Positions 1 through 46,600 of a DNA stretch of 64,000 nt are shown piece after piece (the stretch's first letter is position 1; every line of letters begins with the position of its first letter). The position numbers and the translations under genes are program-made. The notes beneath the pieces are model-generated. The model was not told the DNA's origin. It did not search any database and saw nothing but the letters and a program-made list of their open reading frames with translations. The stretch is from positions 3,679,246-3,743,245 of the forward strand of contig NC_088296.1 in assembly GCF_032854445.1 (NCBI RefSeq), read 5' to 3'. The stretch comes from Liolophura sinensis (lineage: Eukaryota; Mollusca; Polyplacophora; Chitonida; Chitonidae).

Positions 1-1130
1 TGTAAGGTGAGTGAGTGGGTCTGTGGTCAGGGCAAGTCCGCTATGGGGTGATAAGCTGTGAGGGATGTAAAGTGAGCGAGTGGGTCTGTGGTCAGGGCAA
101 GTCGGCTATGGGGTGATAACCTGTGAGGGGTGTAAGGTGAGTGAGTGGGTCTGTGGTCAGGACAAGTCCGATATGGGGTGATAACCTGTGAGGGGTGTAA
201 AGTGAGTGAGTGGGTCTGTGGTCAGGGCAAGTCCACTATGGGGTGATAACCTGTGAGGGGTGTAAGGTGAGTGAGTGGGTCTGTGGTCAGGACAAGTCCG
301 ATATGGGGTGATAACCTGTGAGGGGTGTAAAGTGAGCGAGTGGGTCTGTGGTCAGGGCAAGTCCACTATGGGGTGATAACCTGTGAGGGGTGTAAGGTGA
401 GTGAGTGGGTCTGTGGTCAGGGCAAGTCCGATATGGGGTGATAACCTGTGAGGGGTGTAAAGTGAGCGAGTGGGTCTGTGGTCAGGGCAAGTCCACTATG
501 GGGTGATAACCTGTGAGGGGTGTAAGGTGAGTGAGTGGGTCTGTGGTCAGGGCAAGTCCGATATGGGGTGATAACCTGTGAGGGGTGTAAGGTGAGTGAG
601 TGGGTCTGTGGTCAGGACAAGTCCGATATGGGGTGATAACCTGTGAGGGGTGTAAAGTGAGCGAGTGGGCCTGTGGTCAGGGCAAGTCCACTATGGGGTG
701 ATAACCTGTGAGGGGTGTAAGGTGAGTGAGTGGGTCTGTGGTCAGGGCAAGTCCGATATGGGGTGATAAGCTGTGAGGGGTGTAAAGTGAGCGAGTGGGT
801 CTGTGGTCAGGGCAAGTCCACTATGGGGTGATAACCTGTGAGGGGTGTAAGGTGAATGAGTGGGTCTGTGGTCAGGGCAAGTCCGCTATGGGGTGATAAC
901 CTGTGAGGGGTGTAAAGTGAGTGAGTGGGTCTGTGGTCAGGGCAAGTCCACTATGGGGTGATAACCTGTGAGGGGTGTAAGGTGAGTGAGTGGGTCTGTG
1001 GTCAGGACAAGTCCGATATGGGGTGATAACCTGTGAGGGGTGTAAAGTGAGTGAGTGGGTCTGTGGTCAGGGCAAGTCCACTTTGGGGTGATAATCTGTG
1101 AGAGGTGTAAAGTGAGTGAGTGTTGGCAGT
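1..1130 (+). repeat. 65-bp minisatellite carrying HR3 P-box exon end and 5' splice site
   Basis: Seventeen 65-bp periods (TGTAA phase at 1, 66, 131 ... 1106). In register, each unit reads TATGGGGTGATAACC then TGTGAGGGGTGTAAG|GTGAGT. This encodes YGVITCEGCK, the nuclear-receptor P-box that must immediately precede the GFFRR exon at 2130, followed by a consensus donor. Units alternate between type A (AAGGTGAGT) and type B (AAAGTGAGC/T), giving a roughly 130-bp higher-order dimer, with one A-A junction at 521/586. The genuine first zinc-finger exon is the leftmost copy or lies just outside the window. Confidence 0.9.
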
Positions 1131-1226
1131 GCAAGTCCGTTATGAGTATATAACCTGCAGTTATAACTTTTGAATGGGGTGAGACAAGATAGACATAAAA
1201 AGTTCAGTAAGAAATTGTTGCGCAAG

Positions 1227-1780
1227 ACGGTGGGACAACGTGGAGACCAGACAGTGATTGACATTGTGGTGGGACAATGTAGAGACGAGACAGTGACTGA
1301 CATTGTGGTGGGACAACGTAGAGACGAGAGGGTGATTGACATTGTGGTGGGACAACGTAGAGACGAGACAGTGATTGACATTGTGGTGGGACAACGTAGA
1401 GACGAGACAGTGACTGACATTGTGGTGGGACAACATAGAGACGAGACAGTGACTGACATTGTTGTGGGACAAGGTAGAGACAAGACAGTGATTGACATTG
1501 TTGTGGGACAAGGTAGAGACAAGACAGTGATTGACATTGTTGTGGGACAAGGTAGAGACAAGACAGTGATTGACATTGTTGTGGGACAAGGTAGAGACAA
1601 GACAGTGATTGACATTGTTGTGGGACAAGGTAGAGACAAGACAGTGATTGACATTGTTGTGGGACAAGGTAGAGACAAGACAGTGATTGACATTGTTGTG
1701 GGACAAGGTAGAGACAAGACAGTGATTGACATTATTGTGGGACAACGTAGAGACAAGACAGTGATTAACATTGTGGTGGA
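1227..1780. repeat. 39-bp minisatellite in HR3 intron (about 14 copies)
   Basis: Unit of 39 bp (GACATTGTTGTGGGACAAGG and 19 more bases). It is divisible by three, which is why overlapping open frames occur on both strands. The left copies carry GGTGGGACAACG variants and the right copies are homogenised to TTGTGGGACAAGG. No splice site was seen in the unit. Confidence 0.95.
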
Positions 1781-2129
1781 ACTAGGTTAAGCTAGAAGAT
1801 GAGAAAGTAATTGTGGTAGAAAAGATGATATGACGGTAGAAAAGAGAAGTTACCTGAACATCTTGTAGTTGTCTCTACATTTTCAAGTATTTATTCTGAG
1901 GATATTATTTAGTAAAAAGTGAAAAGGCTCAGTAATGGATTACTCCATTAGAAAAGTCTTGGCTTGTATGTGGAGTGAATACTGTAAAAGTACTTTACTC
2001 TTGGGAACATATCTTCCAAAATTAATTTGATGAGTCTAATACAAGAAATGTCTGACATTGGATGTACAAAATGCTTCCAACCACAAGGAAATGGGTCCAA
2101 TACTTCTGTTCTCTCGGAATTGTTATTAG

Positions 2130-2271
2130 GGATTTTTCCGCCGCAGTCAGGCTGGTCCTGTCAACTATCAATGTCCCCGCAACAAAAACTGTTTGATAGA
2201 CCGTGTCAACCGCAACCGCTGTCAGTACTGCCGGCTGCAGAAGTGCATCGCCCTTGGCATGTCCAGAGACG
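2130..2271 (+). CDS. HR3: HR3 exon: second zinc finger of DNA-binding domain
   Basis: Acceptor ttattag|GGA and donor GACG|gtgagt. It starts exactly after the P-box codons, at GFFRRSQ, which is the conserved nuclear-receptor intron position between the zinc fingers. It carries the four second-finger cysteines ([23 protein letters not shown]). It ends with one base carried into the next exon. Confidence 0.95.
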
Positions 2272-5200
2272 GTGAGTTACCATGGTTACACTAGGCAGTC
2301 TTTTTTTAAATTTTTTTTATTTTGGATCAGGTGTTTGATAATCAAGTCAGTCCTCTGAATGTTGGTGTAAAGTACAGTAAATTTTGTTCAAATGGTGCCT
2401 TTTTGATTGGCAAATTAAATAACAATGCTGAAAATTACAATTTTTCCAGTAGGAGATCATGATAACTTTTAAACAAACCTCAAAACACCTTTCTAAAATC
2501 AGTAGCGCTCGGGTCTTTCATCAACCTGAGGATGGGCGTGGGTTTCCCCCAGGCTCTGCCCAGTTTCCTCCCACCATAATGCTGGCTGCTGTCATATAAG
2601 TGAAATATTCTTAAGCATGGCGTAAAACCCCAGTCAAATAAATAAATAAGTCAATAGGACTCGCATTCGAGTCAAAACAAGCGACCTAGTCCGGGAAGGC
2701 AGGTAGACCACAGGTGTGCTTTGATTCACGTAGTTTTCCATTGGTTTTCAGCGGTGAAGTTTGGTCGGATGTCCAAGAAACAGCGTGAGCGCGTAGAGGA
2801 CGAGGTGAACATGGTGAAGCAGGGTCAGCTGAATGGGTATGCCCCCACCTCCCCCGCACCCACCCACTACACGCATCTCCCCAACAACGTCAACAACAAC
2901 AACAACAACCAATACAGCACGTAAGCTTCAGTCATGTACTCTTCTGTTGCCTGGCAAACGCCTGATATCTTAACCTTTCTCGTGTGTAGTGGGAAGAGCT
3001 AGGAAACTGTTTGACCGGTTTGGCAGATTCTAACCAAAAGTAGTTAACAACACACATATCAAGTACAAGAACATCTCAACATGGGCCATCTATATTGGCC
3101 ATCTTACACTGATTCTGGTTTCTTTCCCATTCAAAATTGAAAAGAAAGAAGTGTGGCTTATCTTAGGCCTGTTTGGCAAAATGGCTGTTTTAAACCTTTG
3201 TACCAGCTGATAGTTACCATGGTAATTTAGCATCTCCATAGTTACACACTAGTGAACATCAGTCATATTGACAATCTTAAGAGATTCTGTGAAAGAATGA
3301 TGGATTCTAGTTCTTTCGTTTCCAAAATTTAAAAAAAAACTCAAAATATTCCAGTTTTGTGTCGGGGAAAGTGTTAACTAAAATGAGACATGGTCATTTT
3401 TGTCCATGCCTGAAGATTGCCGCGTTACAATTCTAGCAAACTCGTGAAGTGAAGAACCTCTTTCTTACAAATCAGTCTTGCCAGCTTTACTGTGGACGCA
3501 GTTTGCATTCTATTGAACAAAGTCATAGCAAATATAGTTGAAAAGCAAAGAATCAGTGGTTGTTCCACTTGGACACCTGACAAAATAATTATATGAATAG
3601 ATAGGATTATGTTCGATAAAAATTACATATAACTTTACATCATTGATAACAGGCAGAAAGGTTGAGATATTGGGGGTGATTCTCTGCTATTTTTGTGTTT
3701 TTAATTTCCTATTAACACGAATCGTCTGGTATTCACAAGCAAAAATCTGAACTTTGGGCAGAAATGTTACAGATATCTGTAATGTGGATATGGAAGAGAA
3801 AGGGTAGCCACAATTGACCCACGATTTTGGATTTGGTGGCTGATCAATTCTGAGGCACATCATTTTTTTGAAAATTTTATGTGAAAATCATTGAAAAGCT
3901 GCTCAAAGTTCAGTTTTGTCTTGCTGAATTTTCTGAGAGTTATAATGAGGTTTCCAGCAGAAGAAAAATTTTTCCTTGAAGAAGAAACAGGAATGAAGCC
4001 TGTAAAGTCTTTGAAATATTTTATTATCCATGGTCACTGAATTTAACATCAGTAATAATGAGTTGCTTTCTGCTGTGTTTTTGATGAAAACATATGTCAT
4101 TAAGAGTTATCAGAATAAGTAAAAAATACTTCCGAAGAACCCAAAAATGTTCAGAATTCTCAAAGAAATGTAGACAAAGATTATTTGCCGAAAAGTAATA
4201 ATGTACGAAAAAAAAGTGGTTTAAGATATTTTCTTCTGCTGAAAATCTTATACATGTATGCATGAATGTATTTGTTTTTTTTTGTGCGCAAATCATATCC
4301 TCAAAGGTGAAATGAAAGATGCACGACTTTATTCAGCTTAAAGACACAAATGCTTTTCTTTTTGGCAGAATGACAGGAAGTAATATCCTGTTATTTGTAA
4401 AAGGGTTTTATTTAAAGGTGAAAAAAAAAATCGTTAATCCTTTCAGGATATCTTAATTTTTATTTACTTAGAGCATTCCTGAAATATGAAGATGGAGTTT
4501 GTTTTCTTCAGACCAAAGAGTTACTGTTGCATTTCACCTTTGAACAAGTCTTTAGACGAGAATAAATTTGTTAAGATGTGCTTTGGTGGGGCTGAGTTAC
4601 TTGCAATCTCGCCATAGAAGTCATCCAGATCTGGTGGTTGCTCCCTGTTCTTGACTTGCTGCTTACAAGATCTGAAGTATTTAAACACCTATTCATGGTA
4701 GGCCCTCCATTTACCCAACCAAACTCTAGCTTCAATGGTGTGGTAATTGGCTCTTCTCAAGGTTTCTACCGGACCTCAAAAACTGTGAAAACCATGGAAT
4801 TTGAAAGTAACTTTTCCAGGCCTGGGAAATCCTTGAAAAAGGGGTTTTGTGGTTGGGCCTGGAAAAACCTTGAACTTGTGAATTATCCTGGCAAGGTCTG
4901 ACATGAGAGCTCATGTGATTGGGTTACAGCAGATGTTACTTCAGATTAGTCTGACGTGCCTATTCAAAGAGAGCTCATGGGATTGGCTTACAGCAGATGT
5001 TAGTTCAGATTAGTCTGACGTGCCTATTCAAAGAGAGCTCATGTGATTGGCTTACAGCAGATGTTAGTTCAGATTAGTCTGACGTGCCTATTCAAAGAGA
5101 GCTCATGATTGGCTTACAGCAGATGTTACTTCAGATTAGTCTGACGTGCCTATTCAAAGAGAGCTCATGTGATTGGCTTACAGCAGATGTTACTTCAGAT

Positions 5201-8200
5201 CAAGTAAACATTAAATCACTTAATGGAGCAGCTCTTAGATCTTAGATGTACGAGATTAGGTTTACATATAGAACACGTTTGATGTGCATTTGTACATGTG
5301 TGTGTGTGTATTTGGTATTGTTCGGGTGGTGTCTATATTGGGCATTTCACTGTATCCAGTTTGGCTGTTCAAGTATAGGATGTGGGACTCCATGAAATGC
5401 TAAATGACTTAACATATTGTGTGTTGACACCATTTTGTCACCTTGGTTACCCTGGCTGACAATTGTTTTTTTGCAAATCCTCCACCTTCTGAATTGTGGC
5501 TCCATGTTGCAAACATTTGTCCTGTAGAGCAAAATGTGGTATTTATAACACACGTTGTTTAATAGAGACGTAGTCATAGATGTTGGAATGTGTTGTTTGT
5601 CAGCTGTATGTAAAAAAGGGAGATCAGTCAGTTATGCTTCCGTAAAGTGCAAAAATCAAATAAAATTATGTTTAAAATGTTCATGTCCATATTGATGTAA
5701 CGACTACATTGCAAGTTTACTTAACCTGTGTCAACATACAATTGTCATATTTGCATGGGCATAATTTTAGTGACTAACACCGTTTGTGAGCTTCGAGTAA
5801 GACATAACCCAACGAAGTGAGCTTAAGAATGGCATTAAACATCCTGAAAGCACTTTAAATCTGCCGGGATTTGTGATCTGAATCAGTGGTGAAAAGGGTC
5901 ACATCTGCATGGTTATTTGGGAAAGCATTAATGCAGTTGTGAGCGTAAGTGGACAGATATGGGGTGTATTCGGTTTTATTGGACTATGAGCTGGATGTGA
6001 TAATGTGTCATTGCTTGAATTGTCTCTTACTGCTTTGGAAAAAAATGTGTCCATTTTGTATGCAGAGTAAAAGAAACGTTGTGGAATTTGTCTCCATTTA
6101 CTCATCGAAAAATAATACAATACAGAAAATAAATGGGAAGTGCAGGTATAAAGTTGAACAAAACTCTCTCTTGTCCATTCAGGAGTGCCATGGCGTTTGG
6201 AAATGCTCTTAGAAGGTGCATGAGAAACTAATATGTTTTGCTTTGAGGATGTTGGGACTCTTCATTCTACACTGGGTAGTGACGAACAGGCAGACATCCT
6301 GATTTTATATTCTCACTCAGAGAAAGGCAGAAATAATTACAGATTGTGTTTCTGTATTTACAGTGAATATATTGTATATGTATTTACATATATTGATTTC
6401 ACAATTGTACCACCGTTACCCAATCATTGACCTCAGTAGTTCTTGGAACTTTTTTCTCGGTAAAAATTTAGACAAAGGCGAAGGAAGAAAAAGACTTGTA
6501 AGAAACTGATTTGAATATGGATTTATGATCAAGTAGCAGAAACTATTTTTCAGTCATGTTCAGGATGGTAAGCCTTTGGGAAGAGAATTGCAGTTTTGAA
6601 AACTGTTTCCATGGAAGTAATTCATTGGTAATTTGAATAACCACATAAGGATGAATTGGCATTTATAACCAGACGTGTAGTTGTATGGCACTCAGTCATC
6701 AAGTCTGGGAAACAGTTTTAGAAGGCCCTTACATGTATTAAATGTGTCAGCCATTGAGTATTCCACGCCCTCTCCAGTTTCACAGACACGCAGTATCAAT
6801 ATCCGGCCAATGGGGTGACGTCTTACCCAAGCCCCACTCCCCAGGAATACCTGCCTGCTGGGGCTGATGTCAACACATACACCGTAGCGCCAGCACCACA
6901 CCCGGTCGCCCTGGTGAAGGCAGTGGATGTCATGGATCATGGTGAGTGTTAAATCTTGAAAAGGGTTCACGGCAGATCTCATGGGCATATTTTTTATCTA
7001 TACTCAAGGTAGAGTAGCCTTTTTGAAGTGTGTGATTGCATTTGTCTTTAGAAAATATTTGTTCAGTTCTTTTAAGTTCATCATAGCAGGAATTATATCG
7101 AGTCTCAGGGTGATCAAAATAAAAAAAACTTGGTATTTTGTCACATGAACTGTTGATGAAAGAGAAGATAGAGGCACTGTAATTCCACAACCTTTTCAAA
7201 TGTGTGCACGGTGTTTATTCAAGCATATTCTGGAGGCATTGATAAAATAATAAATACGGTATTGATTGATAAAATTATAAATGTTGTTTTGTCTCGAAAA
7301 TCAGATTAAAATTGTGTGTAAATTGTGCTGAAAGTTATTTTATGTGAAGAGGTTTGGGAATTAAGGTACTTATAATGAAATGTTTGTAATTGTACCACTA
7401 ATTATGGTTGTAAGTTCTAATGCTTAAGGACACTTGATGGCAACCGTGAGCCGATCTTGTCACATGACTAACTTATGAACAAAGGTTAAAGTAATATTCA
7501 GAATACAGTAATATTGGCAGCGTGGTTACACCATTTATCAGGTAATGGCTTCCTCTCCGGCTGTACGTGGGTAGGTCTTCCAGCAACCTGCGGATGGTCG
7601 TGGGTTTCCCCCGGGCTCTGCCCGGTTTCCTTCCACCTTAATGCTGGCCGCCGTCATATAAATGAAATATTCTTGAGTACGGCGTAAAACACCAATCAAA
7701 TAAATAAATAAATTTGTCAGGGACATTTACATGTGTATGACTTGACACTGTTTCCGCTTTACTCTGCTGTGAAATACCTGACCACTGTTACAGAAGTGAA
7801 GTCTGATTTAAAATAGTGAAGTAAATATCCACATTTGCTGTTTAACAAAGTAATGTCCATCTCATCACAGTTCTTACCTAAATTGACCTTCCAAAATCTT
7901 GAGCAATTTGCAATCACCTATATATAGGTATTGATTAGTCAACATTGTGATTGTCATTCTGCACCCCCCCCCCCCCCCAAAAAAAAATTATGTAAGTTGT
8001 GAAAACCTTGCCTGTATTTGAATCACCTATGCTTGACTCACCTGTACTCAACGCACCTGTGCTTTCCTTGACCAGGTACGTTCGGTAAGGCGATAGCTGA
8101 GGCTCACATCAGGACGTACCTGTACACAGAAGATCAGGTGCAACAAATGCGGCATCAGCCTGTGTCACAGGAGCAGATCACCGCTTATAAAAGTATGGTG

Positions 8201-11200
8201 AGTGCTATAGTTGTGAAAAACTCGGACATCAGTAAAAGGAGTGCAAGATGTGTATGGTGAGTGCTGTAGTTGTGGAAAATGTGGAAATCAGTAAAGGGAG
8301 TGCAGGATGTGTATGGTGAGTGCTGTAGTTGTGAAAAACTCGGACATCAGTAAAAGGAGTGCAGGATGTGTATGGTGAGTGCTGTAGTTGTGAAAAACTC
8401 GGACATCAGTAAAAGGAGTGCAGGATGTGTATGGTGAGTGCTATAGTTGTGAAAAACTCGGACATCAGTAAAAGGAGTGCAAGATGTGTATGGTGAGTGC
8501 TGTAGTTGTGGAAAATGTGGAAATCAGTAAAAGGAGTGCAAGATGTGTATGGTGAGTGCTGTAGTTGTGGAAAATGTGGAAATCAGTAAAAGGAGTGCAG
8601 GATGGGTATGGTGAGTGCTGTAGTTGTGAAAAACTCGGACATCAGTAAAAGGAGTGCAGGATGTGTATGGTGAGTGCTATAGTTGTAGAAAATGTGGAAA
8701 TCAGTAAAGGGAGTGCAGGATGGGTATGGTGAGTGCTGTAGTTGTAGAAAATGTGGAAATCAGTAAAGGGAGTGCAGGATGTGTATGAGGAGTGCTGTAG
8801 TTGTGGAAAATGTGGAAATCAGTAAAAGGAGTGCAGGATGTGTATGGTGAGTGCTATAGTTGTAGAAAACGTGGAAATCAGTAAAGGGAGTGCAAGATGG
8901 GTATGGTGAGTGCTGTAGTTGTGAAAAACTCGGACATCAGTGAAAGGAGTGCAGGATGTGTATGGTGAATGCTATAGTTGTAGAAAATGTGGAAATCAGT
9001 AAAGGGAGTGCAGGATGTGTATGGTGAGTGCTGTAGTTGTAGAAAATGTGGAAATCAGTAAAGGGAGTGCAGGATGTGTATGGTGAGTGCTGTAGTTGTA
9101 GAAAATGTGGAAATCAGTAAAGGGAGTGCAGGATGTGTATGGTGAGTGCTGTAGTTGTAGAAAATGTGGAAATCAGTAAAGGGAGTGCAGGATGGGTATG
9201 GTGAGTGCTATAGTTGTAGAAAATGTGGAAATCAGTAAAGGGAGTGCAGGATGTGTATGGTGAGTGCTGTAGTTGTAGAAAATGTGGAAATCAGTAAAGG
9301 GAGTGCAGGATGTGTATGGTGAGTGCTGTAGTTGTGGAAAATGTGGAAATCAGTAAAGGGAGTGCAGGATGTGTATGGTGAGTGCTGTAGTTGTGAAAAA
9401 CTCGGACGTCAGTAAAAGGAGTGCAGGATGTGTATGGTGAGTGCTGTAGTTGTGGAAAATGTGGAAATCAGTAAAGGGAGTGCAGGATGTGTATGAGGAG
9501 TGCTGTAGTTGTGAAAAACTCGGACATCAGTAAAAGGAGTGCAGGATGTGTATGGTGAGTGCTGTAGTTGTGAAAAACTCGGACATCAGTAAAAGGAGTG
9601 CAGGATGTGTATGGTGAGTGCTGTAGTTGTGAAAAACTCGGACATCAGTAAAAGGAGTGCAGGATGGGTATGGTGAGTGCTGTAGTTGTGAAAAACTCGG
9701 ACATCAGTAAAAGGAGTGCAAGATGTGTATGGTGAGTGCTGTAGTTGTGGAAAATGTGGAAATCAGTAAAGGGAGTGCAGGATGTGTATGAGGAGTGCTG
9801 TAGTTGTGGAAAATGTGGAAATCAGTAAAAGGAGTGCAGGATGTGTATGAGGAGTGCTTTAGTTGTGGAAAATGTGGAAATCAGTAAAAGGAGTGCAGGA
9901 TGTGTATGAGGAGTGCTGTAGTTGTGGAAAATGTGGAAATCAGTAAAAGGAGTGCAGGATGTGTATGAGGAGTGCTGTAGTTGTGGAAAAGGTGGAAATC
10001 AGTAAAAGGAGGGCAGGATGTGTATGAGGAGTGCTGTAGTTGTGGAAAATGTGGAAATCAGTAAAAGGAGTGCAGGATGTGTATGAGGAGTGCTATAGTT
10101 GTAGAAAATGTGGAAGTCAGTAAAAGGAGTGCAGGATGTGTATGAGGAGTGCTGTAGTTGTGGAAAAGGTGGAAATCAGTAAAATGAGTGCAGGATGTGT
10201 ATGAGGAGTGCTATAGTTGTAGAAAATGTGGAAATCAGTAAAGGGAGTGCAGGATGTGTATGAGGAGTGCTGTAGTTGTGGAAAACGTGGAAATCAGTAA
10301 AGGGAGTGCAGGATGTGTATGAGGAGTGCTGTAGTTGTGGAAAACGTGGAAATCAGTAAAAGGAGTGCAGTATGTGTATGAGGAGTGCTGTAGTTGTGGA
10401 AAACGTGGAAATCAGTAAAAGGAGTGCAGGATGTGTATGAGGAGTGCTGTAGTTGTGGAAAACGTGGAAATCAGTAAAAGGAGTGCAGGATGTGTATGAG
10501 GAGTGCTGTAGTTGTGGAAAACGTGGAAATCAGTAAAAGGAGTGCAGGATGTGTATGAGGAGTGCTGTAGTTGTAGAAAACGTGGAAATCAGTAAAAGAA
10601 GTGCAGTATGTGTATGAGGAGTGCTGTAGTTGTGGAAAACGTGGAAATCAGTAAAAGGAGTGCAGTATGTGTATGAGGAGTGCTATAGTTGTGGAAAACG
10701 TGGAAATCAGTAAAAGGAGTGCAGGATGTGTATGAGGAGTGCTGTAGTTGTGGAAAACGTGGAAATCAGTAAAAGGAATGCAAGTTGTGTATAATGAGTT
10801 CAGTAGTTGTGGAAAACATTCTGATTTAACGGGGTGTCTTTATTTTGACATTTTTGTATACTAATCTCCTTTCTTTTCGTCATTGTTTCAGACTCATCGT
10901 CAGCTTTGGCAGGAGGTGGCAGACAAAGTAACGTTAGCAGTGCAGCAGATCATAGAGTTTGCCAAAATGGTGCCGGGCTTCATGGACCTGTCTCAAGATG
11001 ATCAGATCATGCTACTCAAGGCTGGTGGGTAGAATTCCCTTCTCCGAAGAAACCCAAGGTCTGATGCTTGCTGGTCACACCTGTTATCACTTGGTTTTAT
11101 TCAGTGGTAACAAGTTGCTAACTTGGAAGTGAGCCCTGGTCTAATGGTAAAGGCTCTTGCCTTTCAGTTGCGAGTTTCAAAACCAGCTTAGGACAAGTAA

Positions 11201-22318: not shown

Positions 22319-22441
22319 TCATGATGGAAGCGCATCTACATATGTGAACAAGGGAGGTAAATCCGGGGGAACATTTTTAGACTGGTCCTTGAAGATGTGG
22401 TAAATTCTGGCCTTGACAGGAACAGTCAGAGTGCCGTTAAT
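22319..22441 (-). CDS. MRPL9: MRPL9 exon 7, stop
   Basis: Acceptor tccgtttcag. It encodes INGTLTVPVKARIYHIFKDQ and ends DALPS with TGA at 22321-22319. It corresponds to vertebrate VNGLDTVRVPMSVV. Confidence 0.9.
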   Translation of the reverse strand: MNGTLTVPVKARIYHIFKDQSKNVPPDLPPLFTYVDALPS

Positions 22442-34400: not shown

Positions 34401-37319
34401 AAAGGAACGCAAGGGAACGCAAAGGAAAGCAAAGGAACGCAAGGGAACATTACCGCAAGACAATTCATCAGAGTTGCCAGCTTTTTCCATTTCCTGCCCA
34501 AAGTAAAATTCATCAAAATCTGACTGGGTCTTTACTTCTTTCCGAAGGCTATTTATACTCTGAAGATATGTCACATGGTCTTGTGGTGAATAAAACAACT
34601 CGTCCTTACACACAAGAGTTTGAACGGAGTGAATTATGAATAACAGAGAGCAAGCATCACAACCCCGAATTCTAATAAACCACATAAGCCTACTGCCCTG
34701 TTGCTTCACCAGCTCAGTGTATAATTCTGTGAATATGTTACTCTTGCAGTTGTCCTGACTAATTAACATCCAACGTATTTCTGGAAAAAAATCCTATTTG
34801 TCCACCACCCTAGTGCGTTTTGGTTGTATGTCGCCTATGTTGTGGAAACATGACTTCCCTTTCAAATTAAATATATGAACCGGCAAATTAAAAGGGAGAT
34901 CACTCCAATAGTTTTGGGAGTGGGAGAAATGTTTATCATGAAATGGCCTATCATTAGTTATTTATTTAGGCTATCGGTTGTAACTGGGGGATACATGTTA
35001 CTGGGGGATACATGTTACTGATATTTACATGTAGTTGTATTCATTTAACGTTTTTGTTGCCATTATTTTTACATTTAGTGACAATGCTTCACAGTCAAAT
35101 TTACGAAATATTACACGACCCAAAAATCAAATTGATTTTTAAAAGCGGGATCTTTTGCACCTGACGACACAACCCCCACCCACCCGCTCTTGGCGACGCC
35201 CTGCAAGAGGAGGAGTGCCCAAGGCAAGCTACTGGCTTTTGTCAAGGTAAACTTTATGACAATCTTTCACTTATGGCGTTTAACAAATGTTGGAAACCTG
35301 CAGATCACTGTGGGATTCCCTTTCATCCCATCATTCTTCTGGCCATTGTCATACCAGTAAAACATTCTTGAATAATGCATAAAGATCTAATCAAGTAAAT
35401 AAACAAAATAAATCAAGATAGGTTTGGGTATGTAAATATGAATCACTGTTAATTTTTAATTGTCATGAAGATCAAAGGGGTATTAACCTGCAAGCAAAAT
35501 GCAGTCGAAGTATTTCAAGCCTGCAGCTGGACACTTACCCTTCTCTGTTCCACATTACCCAAAGGGAGACAACTACCTACTCCAGGTATGCCCACCCTTC
35601 CACAGGTGGCAGAACAAGGGGAGATGACCCTGGCCACATGGGGAGCCTGGTTCACCGCCTGACAAACACCCCTCAGCATTGTCCCTGGAAGACAAACACA
35701 GGCTGCAGTGTAATGTAACTGATCAAACAGATTCTAGTTGTGCAGTTCTGAATCACAAGTTGTTCTGAATGACTTTCACACAACACTTTCACACACTGGT
35801 TGGTTAACTGTAGTTTAATACCACACACAAAATTTTACTCTTATTCCGTATATGATGGCAGCCAGTTCCATAAAGCTGAAACAAGATAAATTCTGCATCT
35901 GTGAAGCGCATCTCTGTGACGTAACTATGTGGTGTTTGACAGAGCCAGTGATAATGGCAGTTGAGCTAATGACAACTACGCGGATTGTCTGAGATACTGG
36001 CTTTGAAGACAAAGATAATATATCAAAATATTTAAATTACACTTACTAACAAGACTTTCAAATTTATTGCTATCTAGCTTGCACCTGCATTATTAGCTTG
36101 CATTTGGTTAGTGGCCATTTGACTTACTTGATAGAGCTGCTATTGGCACTATAACCCAAAACTCTGGTCTCAGGGTAGCTTACACTGACTGATATGAAGT
36201 GACTGTTGGTCATCCTTAACACTCGATAAAATGACAACAAATTGACTCTTTGACAGCAAGCTGGTGTGTCATCACAACCACTGCGCATGCATGTCCAGTG
36301 ATTCCTCAGGTGTAAAATAACGCTGGCAGTTGTTAGTCCGAGTACACTGACTGTTGGTGGAGAAATATTCAGACAACCAGAGTCAGAGTGGAGCAAGTTT
36401 GTCTCAACGGTGTGACAGGGGTAGTGGCCCCACTAACCACTCCACCTACCTCTAGATGCTTAAATCTGCGCCATAACATCTACCCTTCCATTCGCCACAA
36501 AACATTTTGTAATGATAAACCAATAAAGTGTTGTTTCACACGTTAAATGCCTTCAGGCCATGTGATACTGTTGTGTTTTCAAGACATGTATTTAAAATGG
36601 GTGAATACAATTTTGGTAACGCATCCAAAAGCAGACTTTTGTACTTTTTCATTTCTAACAGTGATAATCTTAGTCTCATGCATTATTTTTGAAGCGCAAT
36701 ATTTAATTTGTAGAATTAGGTTATTTATAGTATAAAAATTTTGCAATATCTAAAATGAAATCAACTATGAGTAATAGAGTACAGGAGTTGGACTGTACAG
36801 TTCAACTTTTCACGTGATCCAGTCAAACGATGAGGCAAATGGTGCTTGTGTTCAAATCACTGATGAAAGTATGGCACGGCAGCATTTAACATGTGAAACG
36901 ATACTGTATTGGATTATCATTACAAAATTTTGTTTAGCAATTGGAAGAGGATGTGCTACAACATGGATTTGACCAACTATAGATAGGTGAAGTGGTTATT
37001 TGGGCCACTACCCATACCACAACACTGAGACAAACTTGCTCCACTCTGACTGTGGTTGAGCGGCCATGAATATGGCGAATCTGAATATTTCTCAACCAAG
37101 AGTCAGGCTAGCGGTTGTGTGCTGAGCAAAAAAGCAAGATGTCTTGGAATCACCACAGATATATGCCACGGAACAGAATAAGCATACCCAAGGTACCGTA
37201 GAAAGTGAAGCGGAGAGCACATCATGCGCTGAAACTCTTCTGATTTTGCCAACAACTCGCAACTTATGACAAGCACTTTTGTTCTGCCAACTTACTCCTC
37301 TGAGGGCTCTGCTAAACAA
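22319..37319 (-). CDS. MRPL9: Mitochondrial ribosomal protein L9 (bL9m), complete, 7 exons
   Basis: Structural protein of the mitochondrial large ribosomal subunit. Exons in transcript order: 37319-37197, 31652-31496, 28518-28394, 25799-25749, 24297-24196, 22952-22872, 22441-22319. All introns are GT-AG and phases join, giving 253 codons plus TGA; remembered vertebrate MRPL9 is about 267 aa. The start MFSRALRGVSWQNK is Arg-rich and looks like a mitochondrial presequence. Family matches seen: SASLST|NTIVVKR (human SLSQNRGTVIVER), PKPDIQCILTDDVEG (human PKENLELILTQSVENVG), GNRGDLLYVKRRLFRNYLYP followed by FAKYASPEN (human VRGDLVSVKKSLGRNRLLP, LAVYASPEN), and the C-terminal bL9 domain to INGTLTVPVKARIY. 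The gene spans 15 kb because introns carry huge tandem arrays. It is convergent with HR3 and head to head with COMMD4. Confidence 0.95.
22872..22952 (-). CDS. MRPL9: MRPL9 exon 6
   Basis: Acceptor tgttgacag, donor ACG|gtaagc. It encodes YVELTEDCIELPDEEITEPR followed by DLEIKVT, matching the vertebrate LKLPEEPIT...CEVTV segment. Confidence 0.92.
23441..24206 (-). repeat. 31-bp minisatellite seeded at MRPL9 exon 5 splice donor (about 24 copies)
   Basis: On the coding strand the unit is TCAGGAGAATG|GTGAGTGA plus 12 further intronic bases: 11 bases identical to the exon end and 20 of intron. The array starts at the real donor (24196/24195) and runs into the intron with point variants and a few indels. 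Plus-strand text reads CACTCACCATTCTCCTGACA. Confidence 0.93.
24196..24297 (-). CDS. MRPL9: MRPL9 exon 5
   Basis: Acceptor tctgtccccag, donor AGAATG|gtgagt. It encodes TAKKLFGMFLPVPMSGDNPW and then ILNKTHVKVAFRRM, aligning with the vertebrate segment KNNVKWELNPEIVARHFFK. Its donor begins the 31-bp array. Confidence 0.9.
25749..25799 (-). CDS. MRPL9: MRPL9 exon 4 (51 nt)
   Basis: Acceptor tctttcacag, donor ATG|gtgagt, phase 0 at both ends. It encodes ESGEERETAVESVYAKM, corresponding to the charged helix after LLRQ in vertebrate MRPL9. Confidence 0.85.
25905..26103 (+). mobile_element. SINE-A, diverged, near full length
   Basis: B-box side GGGTTCAAGTCTAGCTCATG, body CATAATGCTGAAATATTCTT with an internal deletion, tail CATAAAACGCCAATTAAATA. 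Confidence 0.8.
26215..26395 (-). mobile_element. SINE-A, minus strand
   Basis: Tail TTTATTTATTTGATTCGTGT, body GGCGGCCAGCATTATGGTGG and ACAGCCCGGGGGAAACCCAC, head side CGGCCGGAGAGGAAGCCTGC. Confidence 0.88.
26614..26745 (+). mobile_element. SINE-A fragment
   Basis: GGGGAGGTCTGCCAGCAACC to the tail ACAACACCAATCAAATAAAT, with an internal deletion of the CCCGGGCTCTGCCCGG block. Confidence 0.82.
26750..27240. other. Uncharacterised open frame and two divergent AAAATGGC starts
   Basis: Inside MRPL9 intron 3. Minus-strand frame 27,013-26,750 stays open for about 90 codons and includes a hydrophobic stretch (ALVTFVLFAMLWPLL). The frame lacks a proper ATG near its start. Motifs AAAATGGC point outward at about 27,023 (minus) and 27,232 (plus), which resembles a small divergent promoter with YY1-type sites. 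I recognise no family and this could be chance. Confidence 0.2.
27590..27750. repeat. 25-bp minisatellite, 6-7 copies
   Basis: CAAAAAGTAATGCAAACACT plus GTGCT repeats in MRPL9 intron 3, with single-base G/A variants. Confidence 0.93.
27813..28065 (-). mobile_element. SINE-B, partial minus-strand copy
   Basis: Tail GAGTGAGTAAGTGCTTGGGG and TCACGTCGTACTTAACAATT, body GGCAAGTAAGCTGCCCTGCC, CAGTCGTTGCACTATCCCCT. The tRNA-like head is missing. Confidence 0.82.
28394..28518 (-). CDS. MRPL9: MRPL9 exon 3: bL9 core
   Basis: Acceptor attcctcag, donor CAG|gtgagc. It encodes GVGNRGDLLYVKRRLFRNYL and then FAKYASPENIAEWKQLRQ, the most conserved bL9 stretch (GxxGDLxxVK and YASPEN). Confidence 0.97.
28640..31540 (-). 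repeat. 69-bp minisatellite seeded at MRPL9 exon 2 splice donor (about 42 copies)
   Basis: Coding-strand unit: 47 bases of exon 2 end (encoding HPKPDIQCILTDDVE) plus 22 intron bases starting GTAAGA. The unit nearest the exon is the exon itself (31496 junction). Copies fill almost the whole intron to within about 120 bp of exon 3. Donor variants are GGAAG|GTAAG, GGAGG|GTAAG and GGGGG|GTAAG, plus rare dead copies (GGAAGATAAG near 29,570 and 30,405). The unit has length 3n, which explains open frames of more than 700 codons on both strands. In the MRPL9 frame each unit reads to a TAA about 20 bases after the donor. Confidence 0.97.
31496..31652 (-). CDS. MRPL9: MRPL9 exon 2: N-terminal bL9 region
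   Basis: Acceptor cgtttgcag, donor GGAAG|gtaaga. It encodes NTIVVKRMYPPRLPKQGHRP and ends PDIQCILTDDVE. Its last 47 bases plus 22 bases of intron are the founding unit of the 69-bp array to its left. Confidence 0.95.
31897..31971. repeat. 17-bp tandem repeat, 4-5 copies
   Basis: TGGTGTCACCTGAGTTT repeats four times and then shortens, in MRPL9 intron 1. Confidence 0.93.
33260..34769 (-). pseudogene. Decayed hAT-like (DUF4371/ZMYM1-type) transposase
   Basis: Broken minus-strand frames in MRPL9 intron 1 line up in family order. FWGQGYCMSSQIKGI (34,000 region) resembles the GQSYDGASNMSG motif and is followed by a Y-x-x-x-NGACHISL stretch resembling the CAAHSLNLV motif. RKVIVGLCETHW (33,740 region) resembles LCxTRW. 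A late basic segment (CRISKRQSKREN, about 33,290) resembles the RKKRQFDYE region. Frames are shifted and stops intervene, so it is dead. Terminal inverted repeats and target duplications were not identified. The match is from remembered motifs only. Confidence 0.5.
34381..34449. repeat. 10-bp tandem repeat (AAAGGAACGC)
   Basis: About seven copies inside the hAT-like remnant, suggesting that expansion followed insertion. Confidence 0.92.
34800..36339. other. MRPL9 intron 1 sequence, no gene
   Basis: No exon recognised. Faint SINE-A-like words (ATTGTCATACCAGTAAAACATTC near 35,345) suggest a very old copy. Confidence 0.35.
36340..37105. mobile_element. Inverted-repeat (foldback/MITE-like) element upstream of MRPL9 exon 2
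   Basis: The arm at about 36,358-36,435 (GAGAAATATTCAGACAACCA, AGTCAGAGTGGAGCAAGTTT, GGGTAGTGGCCC) is inverted at about 37,000-37,095 (GGGCCACTACCC, AAACTTGCTCCACTCTGACT, TGAATATTTCTC). The right arm carries about 15 extra bases. The arms are about 560 bp apart and end about 90 bp before the MRPL9 exon 1 donor. No coding capacity was seen between them. Confidence 0.7.
37197..37319 (-). CDS. MRPL9: MRPL9 exon 1: mitochondrial presequence
   Basis: ATG at 37319. It encodes MFSRALRGVSWQNKSACHKL and ends SASLST at donor ACG|gtacct. The donor is weaker than the others but in phase 0 with exon 2. Basic residues without acids near the start fit an amphipathic import signal. Confidence 0.85.
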
Positions 37320-38027: not shown

Positions 38028-38030
38028 ATG
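38028..38030 (+). CDS. COMMD4: Tentative COMMD4 exon 1 (initiator ATG only)
   Basis: The first confident exon starts in phase 0 with RFRFCGD, and vertebrate COMMD4 starts MRFRFCGD. An upstream exon ending in ATG is therefore needed. ATG|gtaggt at 38028 gives a good donor beside an ETS-like, pyrimidine-rich promoter-like stretch. Weaker alternatives are ATG|gtaaat near 38,570 and ATG|gtaaaa at 40251. Confidence 0.35.
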
Positions 38031-40575
38031 GTAGGTGGTACCGTCTGCTGTTTTCTTTCCTATCAAAATGTTGTTTAACCTTACAGTTATTGAAATGCCA
38101 GCTCATTTGTTACAGATGTATGGTGTTTGACTTTGTCTTGCTAGCACGTTTTATCAGTTTGAGTTATTTGCGACAAGTTGTACAATCGACACACTGGTAA
38201 TCAAAATGAAAATGTTGATGGAGCGCTGTTGACAACAGGGATGAAGTGACAGGAATGGCATAGCCAAATGATTTTCAAAATTCATAGAAACCACAACAAA
38301 CTATATATTTTTGGAAAGCTCAATATATGTGTGTTTCAAAAATACATTGTTCATGATTCAGCAATGAGACATATTTGCGCACGACCACCTGGAATGCAGC
38401 CCCTCCTCCCCTCCATAAAACGTAATTTTCTGTATAATAGTCAAAAATAACCTCACTTTTCTGCGGGTCAAAACAAGCCCTAAATTATTACTTTTAATGT
38501 TTCTCTGGGGAGTATATGGACACAATGTTATAATACTGAAAGAAGAATTACGGTATTGAAGAATTAATGGTAAATTCAGAGGTACATGCCACAAAATTAA
38601 ATATAAAAAATGCAGAAGTTCAGCTTTTTGGGTACCCCCATTTTGATTTTCCAGAAGCCATTTCGTCAAAAATATTTCTTCTTTGGTTAATTTGTAACAA
38701 GTAAAAATTAATTACTAATAAAGTGTTTGAAGTTTTCATGTTTAACTCAAAATTAAGTCTGATATTCTTTTGTGAAATCCACCCTATGAATATTTGCCCT
38801 AAAATAAAATGGTTGTTGTCGTATTTATCAGTTATTTTGACTAGATATTAATAATTATTTATTTTGTAATGCCATATTACTCTGTCTAAGCAAATGCCAC
38901 AATCTCTTCACATATAATCAGCTGTCAAGTATTTTTTATAAGAGCTCAATTGCTTCTGGAGGCATATAAGTTCCATCCTTTGCAATTCAAATTTATTTTA
39001 TTCATTTAATCAGACATTTACTTATATCACATGATTCAGTTTTAAAATAAGCTGATTATATGATCCGATCACGCACAGTTAGTAAGTCATTGTGAATTTA
39101 AAACCAGACAACTGAGCACTACATGCTTACTGAGCAATGCTGTGGACACTATGGGCTACAGTGTAAACAAGGGCTTTCAGCGCATGTGCACTTAGCATTT
39201 TGTTACTTCCTTCTGTCAAACCCCAACCGTCAAAATCAGTTCTAAAATCACTCTGGTCCTATGGTGAAACCCCAAAATAAGCGGGTCATTGTTAGCCAAT
39301 GAGTTTTTCTTTTGTTTTAAACTGTTATCAGCTGTGTAATATGCATAAAATAAACATATGTATGTATCTGAAGTCTTTAGCACAGACCCTGGCTTTGTCG
39401 TCACTGTTTCCTGCTGTGAAAATGACTAGTACACAGCCTCTAACACCTAGTTCCTCGATCCCCCCTATATATTGGGTGCTATTGTGATGCAGTAATACAG
39501 AAAAACATGGTGCGAAACGGGTCCTATGACTGGGCATCTTGAGGTCAGCTTTCAGCCATTTAACAAAAGAAACTGGTGCAGCCCCCTGACAAGCTTTGGG
39601 AACACGAATATGAGTCATGCTCAGTGTCTGTGAAAAAATGACACAACTGACATTCACAGTTATTGTTTATCCCTCTTTTGGAAATAACAGATTGAATGGA
39701 TGCTTTTACCTCAAATCCCTTCATAATAAATCACGTATATATGATCTGACGCTTTGCAAAAAACGAATCAATGTTCATAGCAAGAACTATTTATAGACTA
39801 GCTTTGAGCAACTGGGTTCTTGACAAGGAGCAGAGTTGATAAATAATATAGGGCTAAATGGGCATAATGCAGATTTTGGCCAGTTCCTAAAGTTTAAAAT
39901 ACTGCAGAACACTGGAACTAGCATGTTTGAAGGTTGGACACATTCTGATTACTTTTCAATAAAGAATTTCTTACATACAAGCTATATTTTTCATTTTTCA
40001 GGCTAAAATATTCCTTAGTGACTGTCTCACCAAGCCGGGTTAAGTTCACTTTGTGTTCACCTCCAGTACTTTAGTCACATGACCAAAGAGTGTGCCGATG
40101 ATTGGCTCAGAGTGGCTGTGATATCACTGCATAACTAAGAATACATGTACATACAGTACACATGGAAATCTGATGAAGGATCCAGTCCTAAATGTGCAAC
40201 TATTGACCGCTTACAACTGTTATTTACTGGCTATGTCATTCGGTTAAAGCATGGTAAAATTTTTCTCGCTGCAGGTAGTCCACGTTTAAGTGCTTACATA
40301 TACGCCCTCAGCATTGTATCCTGCTCTTGGATTGGCTGTTTGCTTGCCTTTAACACAATGGTTTCCTCCGGCAATATACCTGGCCATTGTCATATCAGTG
40401 AAATATTCTTTATCACTATCATAGGCAGTAAACACCAAATAAATAGGTAAAAAAATAAATTAAAATAAGTCAGTTCTTTCAATAGTCGTTCAACTTTAAA
40501 GATTCTTTCAACATGACCTCAGTTCATTTCAGTGCATGAACAACTTTCTTTACAGAGTGTTTCCTATTTTTTCAG
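38031..40575. other. Gene-poor stretch, probable COMMD4 intron 1
   Basis: AT-rich, no recognised exons, no arrays. It would be the first intron if the ATG at 38028 is used. Confidence 0.4.
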
Positions 40576-40647
40576 AGGTTCAGATTTTGCGGAGATTTGG
40601 ATTGCCCAGACTGGGTCCTGGCGGAGATTAGTACATTGTCCAGAGTG
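40576..40647 (+). CDS. COMMD4: COMMD4 exon 2
   Basis: Acceptor attttttcag, donor gtgagt. It encodes [20 protein letters not shown] and then LSRV, nearly identical to the vertebrate N-terminus. Confidence 0.97.
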
Positions 40648-43600
40648 GTGAGTTACCTCCCTTAATTGCCTTTCCATCTCCTTCAGCATGCTAAAAAGAA
40701 ACAGTTTTATAAAATATGTTGAGAACATCCAAAATAAATATGGATTATTGTATTGTGATTTTGTTGTTGTAGGGTCAGGGTGCAGTTCACATGTGTATAT
40801 AAATCACAGATACACAGCACAGTGTACGATAAGCACATCTTCATGGTACATGCACTGTGTGGTCTCCATTCTCCACAGGTTATAGGCCTTAGTACAGTGT
40901 GGTAACATGCATGTTCACTTCAATACAGTTGAAAAAGGGGATCAAAGATATTGCTAATAATAACAAGGGAGCAGAATACTGCTCTGCTTCTTCGTTTGTT
41001 TGTTATTAAAATGCTAGGTTGGGTATTTTTTCACCTTTTAAAGCAGTTATTGAGATTCTGTACTTAATATGGATGTATGGTGATATTGTTTTCAGACATC
41101 CATCAAAATGAAACTGCTGTGTGCTCAAGTGATCAAAGATCTTATGGGACAGGGCATTGATGTAAGTTGATAGTTCTGATAATATGTGCCTACAATTCAT
41201 GACAGAGTTGTCTCACCCTTAATATTGTAACTATATGTACTCAGTGAATGTGACTGCCAAGCCATTTAACGACCTCTCTCAGAATATGTCTAGCCCTATA
41301 TTAAAGAGGTGACAAGTTCAAATTCACGGTGCACTAATTCAGCTACGTTTTTACTTCTAACTGATCGGGCTTTTTCTTTTTGTTTCTGCAGTATGATAAA
41401 GTGTCTAAGCTGACAGCAGATGCAAAGTTTGGTGAGTTTTTTTTTTTGTTGACTTCCTAAATTTCTTCTGAACATGCTGAAGTCAATGAATTCAAATATA
41501 TTTGCACATAAATATGGTAAAAAATTGAATGTTCACACATGCCCAACATTCACATCAGTAAACATGAATCAACTCTGGTCATCTGTGTCAATGATTTGAT
41601 TTTTTTTGATTGGTGTTTTACGCCGTACTCAAGAATATTTCACATATACGACATCAGCCAGCTTTATAGTGGGAGGAAACCAGGCAGAGCCAGGGGGAAA
41701 CCCACAACCATCTACAGGTTGATGGCAGACCAGCTGTGTCATGGGTCAGTATTTGTAAAGCTATATAGTTTAACAGGACTTTACTTCCATGGCCATATCT
41801 GGAAAAAAGCTGAAGATTCTTATGCCAAACTTCAAAGATGGGATCAGGATCGTGATTGAAGATATTTGTTAAAATGCAAATCAAAATCATTCTCACTGAA
41901 AACTTTTAAAGTTTGTGAATAAAGTTTATTTAACGCGGCTTGATGAATTGGGGTGCCCAGTAGTTTTGGTTTCCAGAACTAAAATGGCTCTGTAAATAGC
42001 CCTGACTTTAAAATCCCTTTAACTGATGTTTTCTGGGTAGTAGTAGACCAAGGAGAAGGATACCTGTAAGTCATGATAAAGATTGTAATAGTAACTGTAC
42101 CATATGGTGAGCGGCCTATCACGAACAAGTTCATCATTTCAGCTGTACATGAGTTTTTATCATCAAGTTTTGTGGTCAGGCACCTTGGGCTGGTATATTC
42201 AGGGCACTCTGGTCAGACACCATGGGGTGGTATATTCAGGGCACTGTGGTCAGGCACCTTGGGGTTGTATTCAGGGCACTGTGGTCAGGCACCTTGGGAT
42301 TGTATTCAGGGCACTCTGGTCAGGCACCTTGGGGTGGTATATTCAGGGCACTATGGTCAGGCACCTTGCAGTGGTATATTCTGGGCACTCTGGTCAGGCA
42401 CCTAGGGGTGGTGTATTCAGGGCACTCTGGTCAGGCACCTTGGGATTGTATTCAGGGCACTCTGGTCAGGCACCTTGGGGTGGTATATTCAGGGCACTAT
42501 GGTCAGGCACCTTGCGGTGGTATATTCTGGGCACTCTGGTCAGGCACCTAGGGGTGGTATATTCAGGGCACTCTGGTCAGGCACCTTGGGATGGTATATT
42601 CAGGGCACTCTGGTCAGGCACCTTGGGGTGGTGTCTTCAGGGCTCTCTGGTCAGGCATCTTGGGGTGGTATATTAAGGGCACTGTGGTCAGGCACCTTGG
42701 GGTGGTATATTCTGGGCGGTCTGGTCAGGCACCTTGGGGTGGTATATTCAGGGCACCCTGGTCAGGCATCTTGGGGTGGTATATTCAGTGCACTCTGGTC
42801 AGACACTGTGGGGTGGTGTATTCAGGGCACTCTGGTCAGACACCCTAGGGTGGTATATTTTGGGCACCCTGGTCAGTTACCTGGGGATGTATATTCAGGG
42901 CACTCTGGTCAGTCACATGAGGTTGTATATTCAGGGCACTCTGGTCAGGCACCTTGGGGTGGTATATTCTGGGCACCCTGGTCAGTCACCTGGGGATGTA
43001 TATTCAGGGCACTCTGGTCAGGCGCCTTGGGGTGGTATATTCAGGGCACCCTGGTCAGGCACCTTGGGGTGGTATATTCTGGGCACTCTGGTCAGGCACC
43101 TTGGGGTGGTATATTCAGGGCACTCTGGTCAGGCACCTTTGGGTGGTATATTTAGGGCACTCTGGTCAGGCATCTTGGGGTGGTATATTCAAGGCATTGG
43201 TCAGGCACCTTGGGATGGTATATTCAGGGCACTCTGGTATCCTGTACCCATAAATCTGACCACAGGTATATAAATGTGGGAGAAAATTTCTTGAGTACAG
43301 TGGTAAAACCTGATCAATCATTGACTCATTTGGGCATACCTGGATTACAGAGGTCGGAGATGTGAAGGCCAGTATAGCTGCTCTGAACTTCATACTGTCC
43401 AGTGCTGCCAAGTATAATGTGGATGGAGAGTCGTTAGCTAATGAGCTACAGCAGCTGGGTCTGCCTAAAGGTGAGTGATTCCTCTACAGGTACATGTTGT
43501 GCCAGTTTTCTGACGAGAACTTGTAGCTGTGGTAAGTGTAACGCCTAAAGGCGAGTGATTCCTCTACAGGTACATGTTGTGGCAGTTTTCTGACGAGGAC

Positions 43601-46600
43601 TTGTAGCTGTGGTAAGTGTAACGCCTAAAGGTGAGTGATTGTTTCATCTACAGCAGATATGTAGATCTGCTCCAAATTGTCTGACGAGAACTTTCAGCAG
43701 AAATTATGATCTGCCTTATAGCATGCAGCAGTTCTAGCCAGAAGTCACTCCATGTAGAATATTTAAGAGTTTCAAAATTTTCATTACCTCTTCTCTGTGT
43801 ACATGTACCTGCCACTTATACACATGGAAACTCTAAATGGAGTGACTTCTGACTAGAACTGCAGCATATTGATAGCCTTATCACAGTATCTGTTGTAAGT
43901 TTTAGTCAGAAAATACAAGTTAAGGTGCATGTAAAACAGGATCTATGGTGCTGATGTCATGAAGAGGGAAAGCAGATTTGTACCTTATACTGCTGGGAAA
44001 AACTGGCCATCCTGGTACTTTAACATGAGGTGCTCAACAAAACAGGATTGACCAAGTTGGTATATAGTACATGTAGCACTGTCATTTTGTCTACAAATAA
44101 AACTGACCAAAATGGTATACATGTAGGTGAAAATGTTCTTCACCAATCGATCAAACAATCAAGCACTCTTCATAAGATGTGTTGTTTGCTAGGTTCAAAC
44201 TTTACATGCCAAAACCAATATAAAATGAAACCATATATGCCCCTAAAGAAAAATATGGCCTATAAAGCCTGCATTGGAATTCAAATATTTAAATGCATTT
44301 AGACAAATTTTAAATTAACTTTATGTGCTTACATGGCATCTGTTGACTATTTTTTCAGAACATTCCATGGCACTGTGCCGATCCTATGCTGACAATCTGA
44401 CCAATCTACAGGAAGAGTTCCGGAGGAAAAGTCTTCGCTGTGAGTACCAGAAACACCATCATCATGTCGCCTGTTACTGGGACCAGTGACCAATGAGGTT
44501 AAGAGTCCAAATCCAGCTCTGGCTGTCTTGGCGCTGGCCTAGAATCAGGTGGTTTGTCAGATATGTAACAAGGCACAGTTGATTTGTCACATTTGTGTGC
44601 TCTGGCCAGTTTGCTGTACTTGCATTCTTTGCTGTTGTTATATCTCTACAAATAGAATAGTAACCAAGTAAATAATTACACAATCTGCTGCAGAAAACTT
44701 GGAATTCAGGAGTTTGAATGATGACACTGTGCCCTAATTCCTCAACCTAATTCCTCAACCTTTTTGCATGTGAAAGGGCAACTTTCAGTGCAATTTATGA
44801 ACATTTTTGATTGATTTTGGCGACAAAACTACATTGGTTGGGCTGGTCAATTTGAGCCAGAGGGTTTCACAAAACTGACAATTTTATCAGCCTACGCAGA
44901 ATAATACTTTCAGAATATGCTTGAATAAAGACCTTGACATCATGCGAACAGGTTGAAGAATTAGGGTGCATCACTCCTCTAAAGTGATCACTGTCCTGTT
45001 CTGGTATGACCCTCAGCCTAAGTAAATCCATCATCATTTTTTTGTTTTTTTGTATAGTGTCCAGATTAGAGTCTGTGGATTGGAGAGTGGATTACATTAT
45101 CAGCTCTAGTGAACTCAAGGTAACCTTTTTACCTTTAAAAATTCATACACTAAACGTTAGGTGTTACTATAATCTTACATTGATGAGTTCCTGGTCACAC
45201 TTTCCCCTCTTATAGGCCACACAGGCCAGGTGAGGGTCTCTCTTCTCACAGTATTTCCCCACACTGCGGCTGTCGTAGAACTGGTTCTCCCTGAAAACAC
45301 GCAATCAACATATATAAATATATACTAAGATTTACTTGATTATAATCCAGTTATAGAATGTTGGCATAATACTTCCATTTACTCTGTGTGCAGCACATTA
45401 TTTAATTTGACGCTGAATAAGCAATGTCACTAAAATACGGGCACTTTTTTATGCTCATAACAGTTGCCAGGATCAGTTGCCAATAGCCGCAATAAACTGA
45501 AATTTACATGGCTTATTCTTCACTGTAATTCTTTGCATGGTGAAAGTTACTGAGCTGTGCTAGACATAATACCACCGCCCTGAGTGACCAGTGTACAAAT
45601 CCCTACATGCAGGCTGGACCATTAACCATGCAGGCCAGCACTACCAGTTGAAATGAGTTCGATTCTATATTATTTGCCTGTAGGACTTCATGTGGCGCAC
45701 TTTGAGTGAGGGTTGTTAGGTACTGATATAACATATTTAATGCACACATCTGGAACTGTTCTGTATTGGAGGATGTGTTGTAATTATTTATTTATTTGAT
45801 TGGTGTTTTGCGCCCTACTCAAGAATAATTCATTTATACAATGGGGACCAGCATTATGGTGGGAGGATACCGGGCAGAGCCCTGAGGAAACCCACGACCA
45901 TCCGCAGGTTGCTGCAGACCTACCCACGTACGACCAGGGAGGAATCCTGTATGAGCTGGACATGAAGCTACAATGACCACACTGGTAAATATATAAACAT
46001 CTGCTTTCTGACTGTAGGATGTGAATGAGCCTTGTGTGCAGTTACGGCTGGGTATCCGTAATCCGGATGTGGATACTGTAGATCCAGTGGCCTTCACCTT
46101 ATCCGCCGACAAGTTCAGGGTCTTCCTCAGAGGTTAGTCACCTGACCTTCACAAAGCTACTTGTGAAGGTTAGAAACAAAAGGCAATTTGTTCTGCATCG
46201 GTACACGTGCCTGTTTAATAATTTTTAGATATGCTAGACCTTTGCCAAGTGAGACAACAAATATGTTGTGAATTCCCTTTGATCTGGAAAAGGTATACAA
46301 AATTTGAACGTTAGCATGAAATTTCTTATAGGGATGATTTTAACTACATGGTTACTCAGTGATAGGTTTATGTAAATGTATGGTGTCAATAATCCTCATA
46401 TTGAGAATTGAAAATAGGATTATTGTCACCACATATTTGCGTATCCTATCACTGAATCTCCATGTAACAAATTTATCCAGCAAAGACCCATCAATTCCGT
46501 GCAGAGGACCGATGTATAGGTGAATCGCTTCAGTGATGTGACCATAGTATTCACAACCCAACAAAGGGAGATAACCTACTCAGCAGACACATCAAGAATA

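Follow-up and report, generated by a model that had tools for sequence, protein, structure and literature searches.

The window, by which we mean the whole 64-kb stretch of chiton (Liolophura sinensis) DNA that was analysed, holds an HR3/ROR nuclear receptor gene, MRPL9, COMMD4 and an LPMO-like gene, with exon models deduced by homology. HR3/ROR runs on the plus strand (nt 2130–13451) with 8 exons in view, and the 404 residues spliced from them are 100% identical to L. sinensis HR3 isoform X2. On the minus strand, the 7 exons of MRPL9 (bL9m, nt 22319–35678) encode 259 residues with 100% identity to 'large ribosomal subunit protein bL9m-like [Liolophura sinensis]'. COMMD4 lies on the plus strand (nt 38028–48075) with 9 exons, including a putative exon 1 that is absent from the NCBI model. 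The last two exons of the LPMO-like gene (nt 54575–62972, minus strand; exons 54575–55728 and 62555–62972) encode a PF03067 domain and a long tail of low complexity in which T, W and R abound; we take the protein to resemble the animal AA15 enzymes. An open frame of 354 residues (nt 58388–59452) is located between these two exons. Its YIDDL-like letters recall reverse transcriptase, and a Pfam scan assigned the frame to no family. A search for direct repeats only, over nt 41590–64000, found two dispersed families of about 150 bp, one at nt 41616–41766, 45806–45956, 53875–54025, 57577–57727 and 61425–61575, and the other at nt 48124–48265, 49093–49234 and 56266–56407. Judged by eye, both families appear to represent a single SINE-like element, present in either orientation and carrying AATAAATA-type tails.

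Tandem Repeats Finder (TRF) reported 62 rows in the window, which were merged into 23 arrays with a period of at least 20 bp, covering 13,816 bp or 21.6% of the window. Five of the arrays contain a splice donor, and the other 18 lie away from donors. The exon models give 23 donors, namely 22 with their exon in view and one in HR3 that belongs to an exon beyond the left edge of the window, and 24 acceptors. Five of the 23 donors are inside arrays whose unit holds an exon end together with the donor, while none of the 24 acceptors is in an array. An earlier note, made by reading the sequence, had claimed five of about 22 donors, in three genes and on both strands, with some 20 acceptors free of arrays, and both statements are borne out. 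TRF recovers each of the five close to the position that the note had given, and the donor-spanning arrays are confirmed as real features of this window.

Two of the five belong to HR3. The array at nt 1–1122 (plus strand; 17.3 copies by TRF) comprises 18 units of 65 bp, the first and the last being partial, and each unit joins the last 36 bp of the HR3 exon (VHYGVITCEGCK) to 29 bp of intron with the donor; the exon itself is left of the window. Among the 17 units that can be read up to the donor, 6 encode VHYGVITCEGCK, 7 encode VRYGVITCEGCK and 4 encode close variants. The HR3 protein reads VHYGVITCEGCK directly followed by GFFRRS, matching the exon end coded in the units. Beyond this array, the same intron carries a second, unrelated one (nt 1230–1787, 39 bp, 14.3 copies by TRF). 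The donor of HR3 exon 4 (nt 8076–8197, plus strand) is multiplied in a 59-bp array of 44.5 copies (nt 8193–10817) whose unit includes 5 coding bp. The array makes up 97% of the intron that follows, leaving 74 bp before the acceptor.

Similarly, two donors of MRPL9 lie in arrays on the minus strand. A 31-bp array of 24.7 copies (nt 23435–24206) takes in 11 coding bp of exon 5 (nt 24196–24297) and accounts for 61% of the following intron. At exon 2 (nt 31496–31652), a 69-bp array of 42.1 copies (nt 28650–31542) takes in 47 coding bp and accounts for 96% of the intron, of which 131 bp remain. The fifth array, with an 80-bp unit, spans the donor of COMMD4 exon 5 (nt 43351–43470, plus strand) at nt 43463–43693 and includes 8 coding bp. 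Two of its copies are nearly identical and the third has diverged; TRF (2.2 copies) ends the array at nt 43640, and the array forms 19% of its intron. At the four junctions in view the arrays thus include 5, 11, 47 and 8 coding bases, and all the rest is intronic. The claim that each array reaches the junction and then extends only into the intron therefore fits these four; the junction of the 65-bp array is off the window, and its units code for the exon end.

The GT of the donor is retained in 18/18 units of the 65-bp array, 25/44 of the 59-bp array (a variant lacking GT occupies the other 19), 18/25 of the 31-bp array, 40/42 of the 69-bp array and 2/3 of the 80-bp array, that is, in 103 of 132 scored copies. 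When the units of the five arrays were compared pairwise, five of the ten comparisons scored above shuffles at P<0.05. The aligned string in all five similar pairs contains GGTGAGTG, which is the donor, and the weak alignment between the 65- and 31-bp units extends over 26 bases. Units from different loci appear unrelated to one another outside the donor core, and to that extent the earlier view of unrelated units holds; it has to be qualified for the donor string shared by half of the pairs and for the one match that runs over 26 bases.

Which copy of the donor is joined can be read from predicted proteins. In the NCBI-named proteins, the junction falls at the exon-proximal boundary for each of the five arrays, these proteins being predictions, with HR3 represented by isoform X2 only and the COMMD4 model starting without the first 29 residues. 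HR3 X2 reads CK/GF and KSM/THR across the two junctions, MRPL9 reads VEG/VGN and RRM/YVE, and COMMD4 reads LPK/EHS, all without insert. Solved chains of mitoribosomal L9 and COMMD4, which we take to be human, align over VEG/VGN, RRM/YVE and LPK/EHS and are free of insert at the junction. In the four arrays where use of a later donor copy can be tested, it would bring an early stop in 111 of 111 cases. Many later copies are strong nonetheless, with GT and U1 pairing equal to or better than the first copy seen in 7/17, 23/43, 14/24 and 12/40 units. Strong later copies, set against an exon-proximal junction in the protein models and the early stops, suggest that the donor adjoining the exon likely wins. 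This is what exon definition predicts.

Whether five donor-spanning arrays are more than chance would produce depends on the null. Raw coverage of 21.6% predicts 4.97 of 23 donors in arrays, and the five seen are no excess on that count; the excess therefore depends on a null of seeding. Naive coverage was set aside as the main test because the position of an array bounded at an exon reflects that of its seed unit. If each array grew from a single unit set down at random, 0.48 arrays would be expected to span a donor (P=1.5e-4). Placing whole arrays at random while sparing exons gives 0.81 (P=0.0008), and restriction to genic sequence, with 13 arrays, gives 0.45 (P=1.0e-4). Under the genic null the result is P=1.2e-3 for four arrays, with the 80-bp array left out, and P=0.011 for three, with the 65-bp array also left out. 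The donor excess within this window is well supported, with the reading that it is a single window, picked for its striking pattern, and that the P values take no account of that choice. We infer that donors would be struck more often than other places genome-wide.

The side of the acceptors is less telling. Random seeding predicts 0.50 acceptor-spanning arrays, so that finding none is by itself not unusual. Between donors and acceptors, Fisher's test gives P=0.022, or 0.045 when only the four donor junctions in view are counted. The convergence of arrays on the donor position, as the earlier note put it, stands insofar as the arrays are independent and exceed random seeding, but the contrast with acceptors is weaker than it had stated. 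A search for diverged duplicates within 500 bp of junctions, judged against mononucleotide shuffles, found none at the 18 other donors (z at most 1.3). Self-similarity was raised at 2 of 24 acceptors, those of COMMD4 exons 8 and 3. At exon 8 (nt 45740–46030), 27 junction bases have a gapped match about 250 bp upstream that spans the junction. Its z of 5.1 is above all of the 200 shuffles run at this junction, though chance alone would give about 0.2 excesses of this kind across the 47 junctions. At exon 3 the z is 3.7, which ties the best shuffle, and the match is intronic only. The exon 8 match is possibly an old acceptor duplicate, and therefore slightly lowers the odds of donor-specific readings. 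The absence of acceptors from arrays had been noted earlier; the zero of 24 is correct, but with 0.5 expected and one faint, possibly old acceptor duplicate it does not support an avoidance of acceptors.

We consider it very probable that all five arrays belong to the 'mirage' kind of boundary-spanning minisatellite known from amphioxus, in which a tandemly duplicated segment grew into the intron and the exon-proximal copy is joined. Three observations support this reading: the anatomy of the arrays, the exon-proximal junction in the NCBI protein models, and the excess over random seeding within the window. As a course of events, a segment of 31–80 bp over the exon end and donor would have been duplicated in tandem, and the array would then have grown into the intron by slippage or unequal exchange, nearly filling it in two cases. 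Such growth may be presumed because the units are homogeneous and their variants clustered. The 80-bp array of COMMD4, with its two near-identical copies and one older, diverged copy, looks like an early stage. The gene would survive since splicing would take the copy nearest the exon; the other copies, often equal in U1 match, would leave with the intron. With all but one unit removed, the original introns would have measured perhaps 130–200 bp, which suggests how introns of this size might expand from the 5′ side to 3 kb. Each array also amounts to a natural competition test, in which up to about 45 similar donors are offered and the one adjoining the exon is taken according to the models. 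At the array density found in 64 kb, a single genome could show whether donors seed tandem duplication.

What brought the mirage-type arrays to donors is a separate matter. One explanation, quite plausible to us though somewhat short of probable, invokes random seeding and survival, whereby minisatellites arise everywhere, are purged over coding exons and acceptors, and are tolerated at donors because it is the proximal donor that is used, with no donor-specific cause. Arrays do occupy over a fifth of the window, most of them away from donors, and the missing acceptor arrays require no cause. The array donors also pair somewhat better with U1 than the others (median −9.5 against −8.45; one-sided P=0.025), as would fit a survival filter. 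By reasoning, however, survival alone should not exceed the neutral expectation of 0.48 arrays (0.45 in genic sequence), and five are seen.

Alternatively, events at working donors, such as transcription, U1 binding, R-loops or breaks, may cause the tandem duplication. A donor-specific cause of this sort is possible, though we rate it as less likely than not. It draws on the same seeding excess and on a comparison of donors with sites of equal strength. The comparison took GT-bearing sites that lie outside coding exons and pair with U1 at −8.6 kcal/mol or better; the donor at window base 7 served in place of the off-window junction of the 65-bp array, and the non-authentic count omits any array strand that carries copies of an authentic donor. 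On these terms, 5/14 authentic donors lie in arrays against 1/33 of all non-authentic sites (P=0.006). With the non-authentic sites of sense introns alone (1/13), the strict cut-off gives P=0.098, which speaks against the idea. A cut-off of −8.0 gives 5/16 against 1/64 (P=0.00096; P=0.017 for sense introns alone), and one of −7.0 gives 5/17 against 2/106 (P=0.0005; P=0.013 for sense introns alone). The skew of G over C on the sense strand is positive in 5/5 donor arrays and in 5/9 of the other arrays listed; this favours events at working donors, but the skew is partly a product of copying the donor itself. The possible old duplicate at the COMMD4 exon 8 acceptor also counts against a donor-specific cause. 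The wider proposition would be that minisatellites in chitons arise again and again at working 5′ splice sites, where something tied to donor use would seed duplication, so that about one-fifth of donors bear arrays and introns lengthen from the 5′ end, with few arrays at acceptors or at donor-like sites of equal strength. We regard this generalization as rather unlikely.

The sequence of the donor, used or not, might be what matters, if motifs of GTGAGTG type, which contain a short internal repeat, seed duplication by slippage. GTGAGTG occupies positions +1 to +7 in 4/5 array donors and in 1/18 others (P=0.003), and a motif effect therefore stays in play. On the other hand, strong donor-like motifs are not above chance in the 18 non-donor arrays (1 of 36 array-strands, 0.9 expected; the hit is at 50667 or 46707, depending on whether the consensus or the copies are scored), and slippage driven by the motif is an improbable cause. 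The 31-bp array at nt 46707–47299, in the last COMMD4 intron, has a donor-like antisense consensus, CACGTAAGT (P=0.02 against shuffles). Downstream of COMMD4, the 39-bp array at nt 50667–50845 has the donor-like consensus CTG/GTGAGG (P=0.06 against shuffles); this site could mark the end of an unannotated exon.

A selected function, in which extra donors keep U1 snRNP on the nascent RNA for redundancy or to suppress early polyadenylation, might be read into the retention of GT by most copies, but it is very unlikely: the divergence of the donor 9-mer equals or exceeds that of 88, 81, 42 and 86% of 9-bp stretches in the 65-, 59-, 31- and 69-bp units, and the 9-mer is therefore not better conserved than the remainder of the unit, which speaks against a function of the copies, as do the units of the 59-bp array that lack GT. 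Long tandem arrays are often misassembled, and the arrays or their copy numbers could be wrong, but we give an assembly artefact hardly any credence, given the ordered variants (AAG and AAA alternate through much of the 65-bp array, and AGGAGT variants cluster distally in the 59-bp array), a window without N, and many arrays of other sequence.

The mirage-type reading places the chiton arrays among known systems. The earlier note had named as precedent the gain of introns by tandem duplication of AGGT-bearing segments (PMC4974935). As far as the portions available to us describe them, this process and the human internal tandem repeats at exon–intron boundaries (PMC2812944) share with the chiton arrays the multiplying of splice signals by tandem duplication; however, they create introns or alter exons, whereas in the chiton an existing intron appears to have been lengthened. 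In the human IFI6 (6-16) gene, a minisatellite supplies several splice donors (Turri 1995, as cited in PMC4526556). The repeat units bear donors in both cases, but according to the cited account inner copies are used in IFI6 and yield several mRNAs, whereas the predicted chiton proteins show the exon-proximal copy only. Papers on intron minisatellites of C. elegans and earthworm describe no repeated donors in the passages on them. Among the literature matches listed, there was no mollusc report of donor-spanning minisatellites and none on L. sinensis tandem repeats.

The closest counterpart, to judge from the parts of the reports at hand, is the amphioxus 'mirages', minisatellite-like tandem duplications of exon–intron boundaries in several genes (PMC3087553), among them Adh3, the globins Gb6 and Gb9, TnC and PGBD5, and first reported in Canestro 2002, as cited (PMC3087553; PMC3902484). 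Their units measure 10–72 or 150–160 bp, and many copies carry splice signals (PMC3087553; PMC3902484). The multiplied boundaries include donors as well as acceptors, and RT-PCR points to normal splicing (PMC3087553). The Gb6 mirage has 3 or 6 copies in two haplotypes (PMC3087553; PMC3902484). The chiton arrays agree with mirages in that the unit spans a real exon–intron boundary (four in view, the fifth through the coding of the exon end) and in that units are mostly unrelated between loci, a feature that we read from the differing unit lengths of mirages. The predicted proteins would fit normal mRNA from the authentic boundary. The chiton arrays differ in lying at donors only (5/23 against 0/24 acceptors, with 0.5 expected and one faint acceptor duplicate), where amphioxus has them at both boundaries, and in reaching about 45 copies, in a mollusc, where Gb6 has 3 or 6. 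For the most part, then, the chiton arrays represent a known kind; their novelty lies in the phylum, as far as the literature searched shows, and in the copy number, the density and the donor bias.
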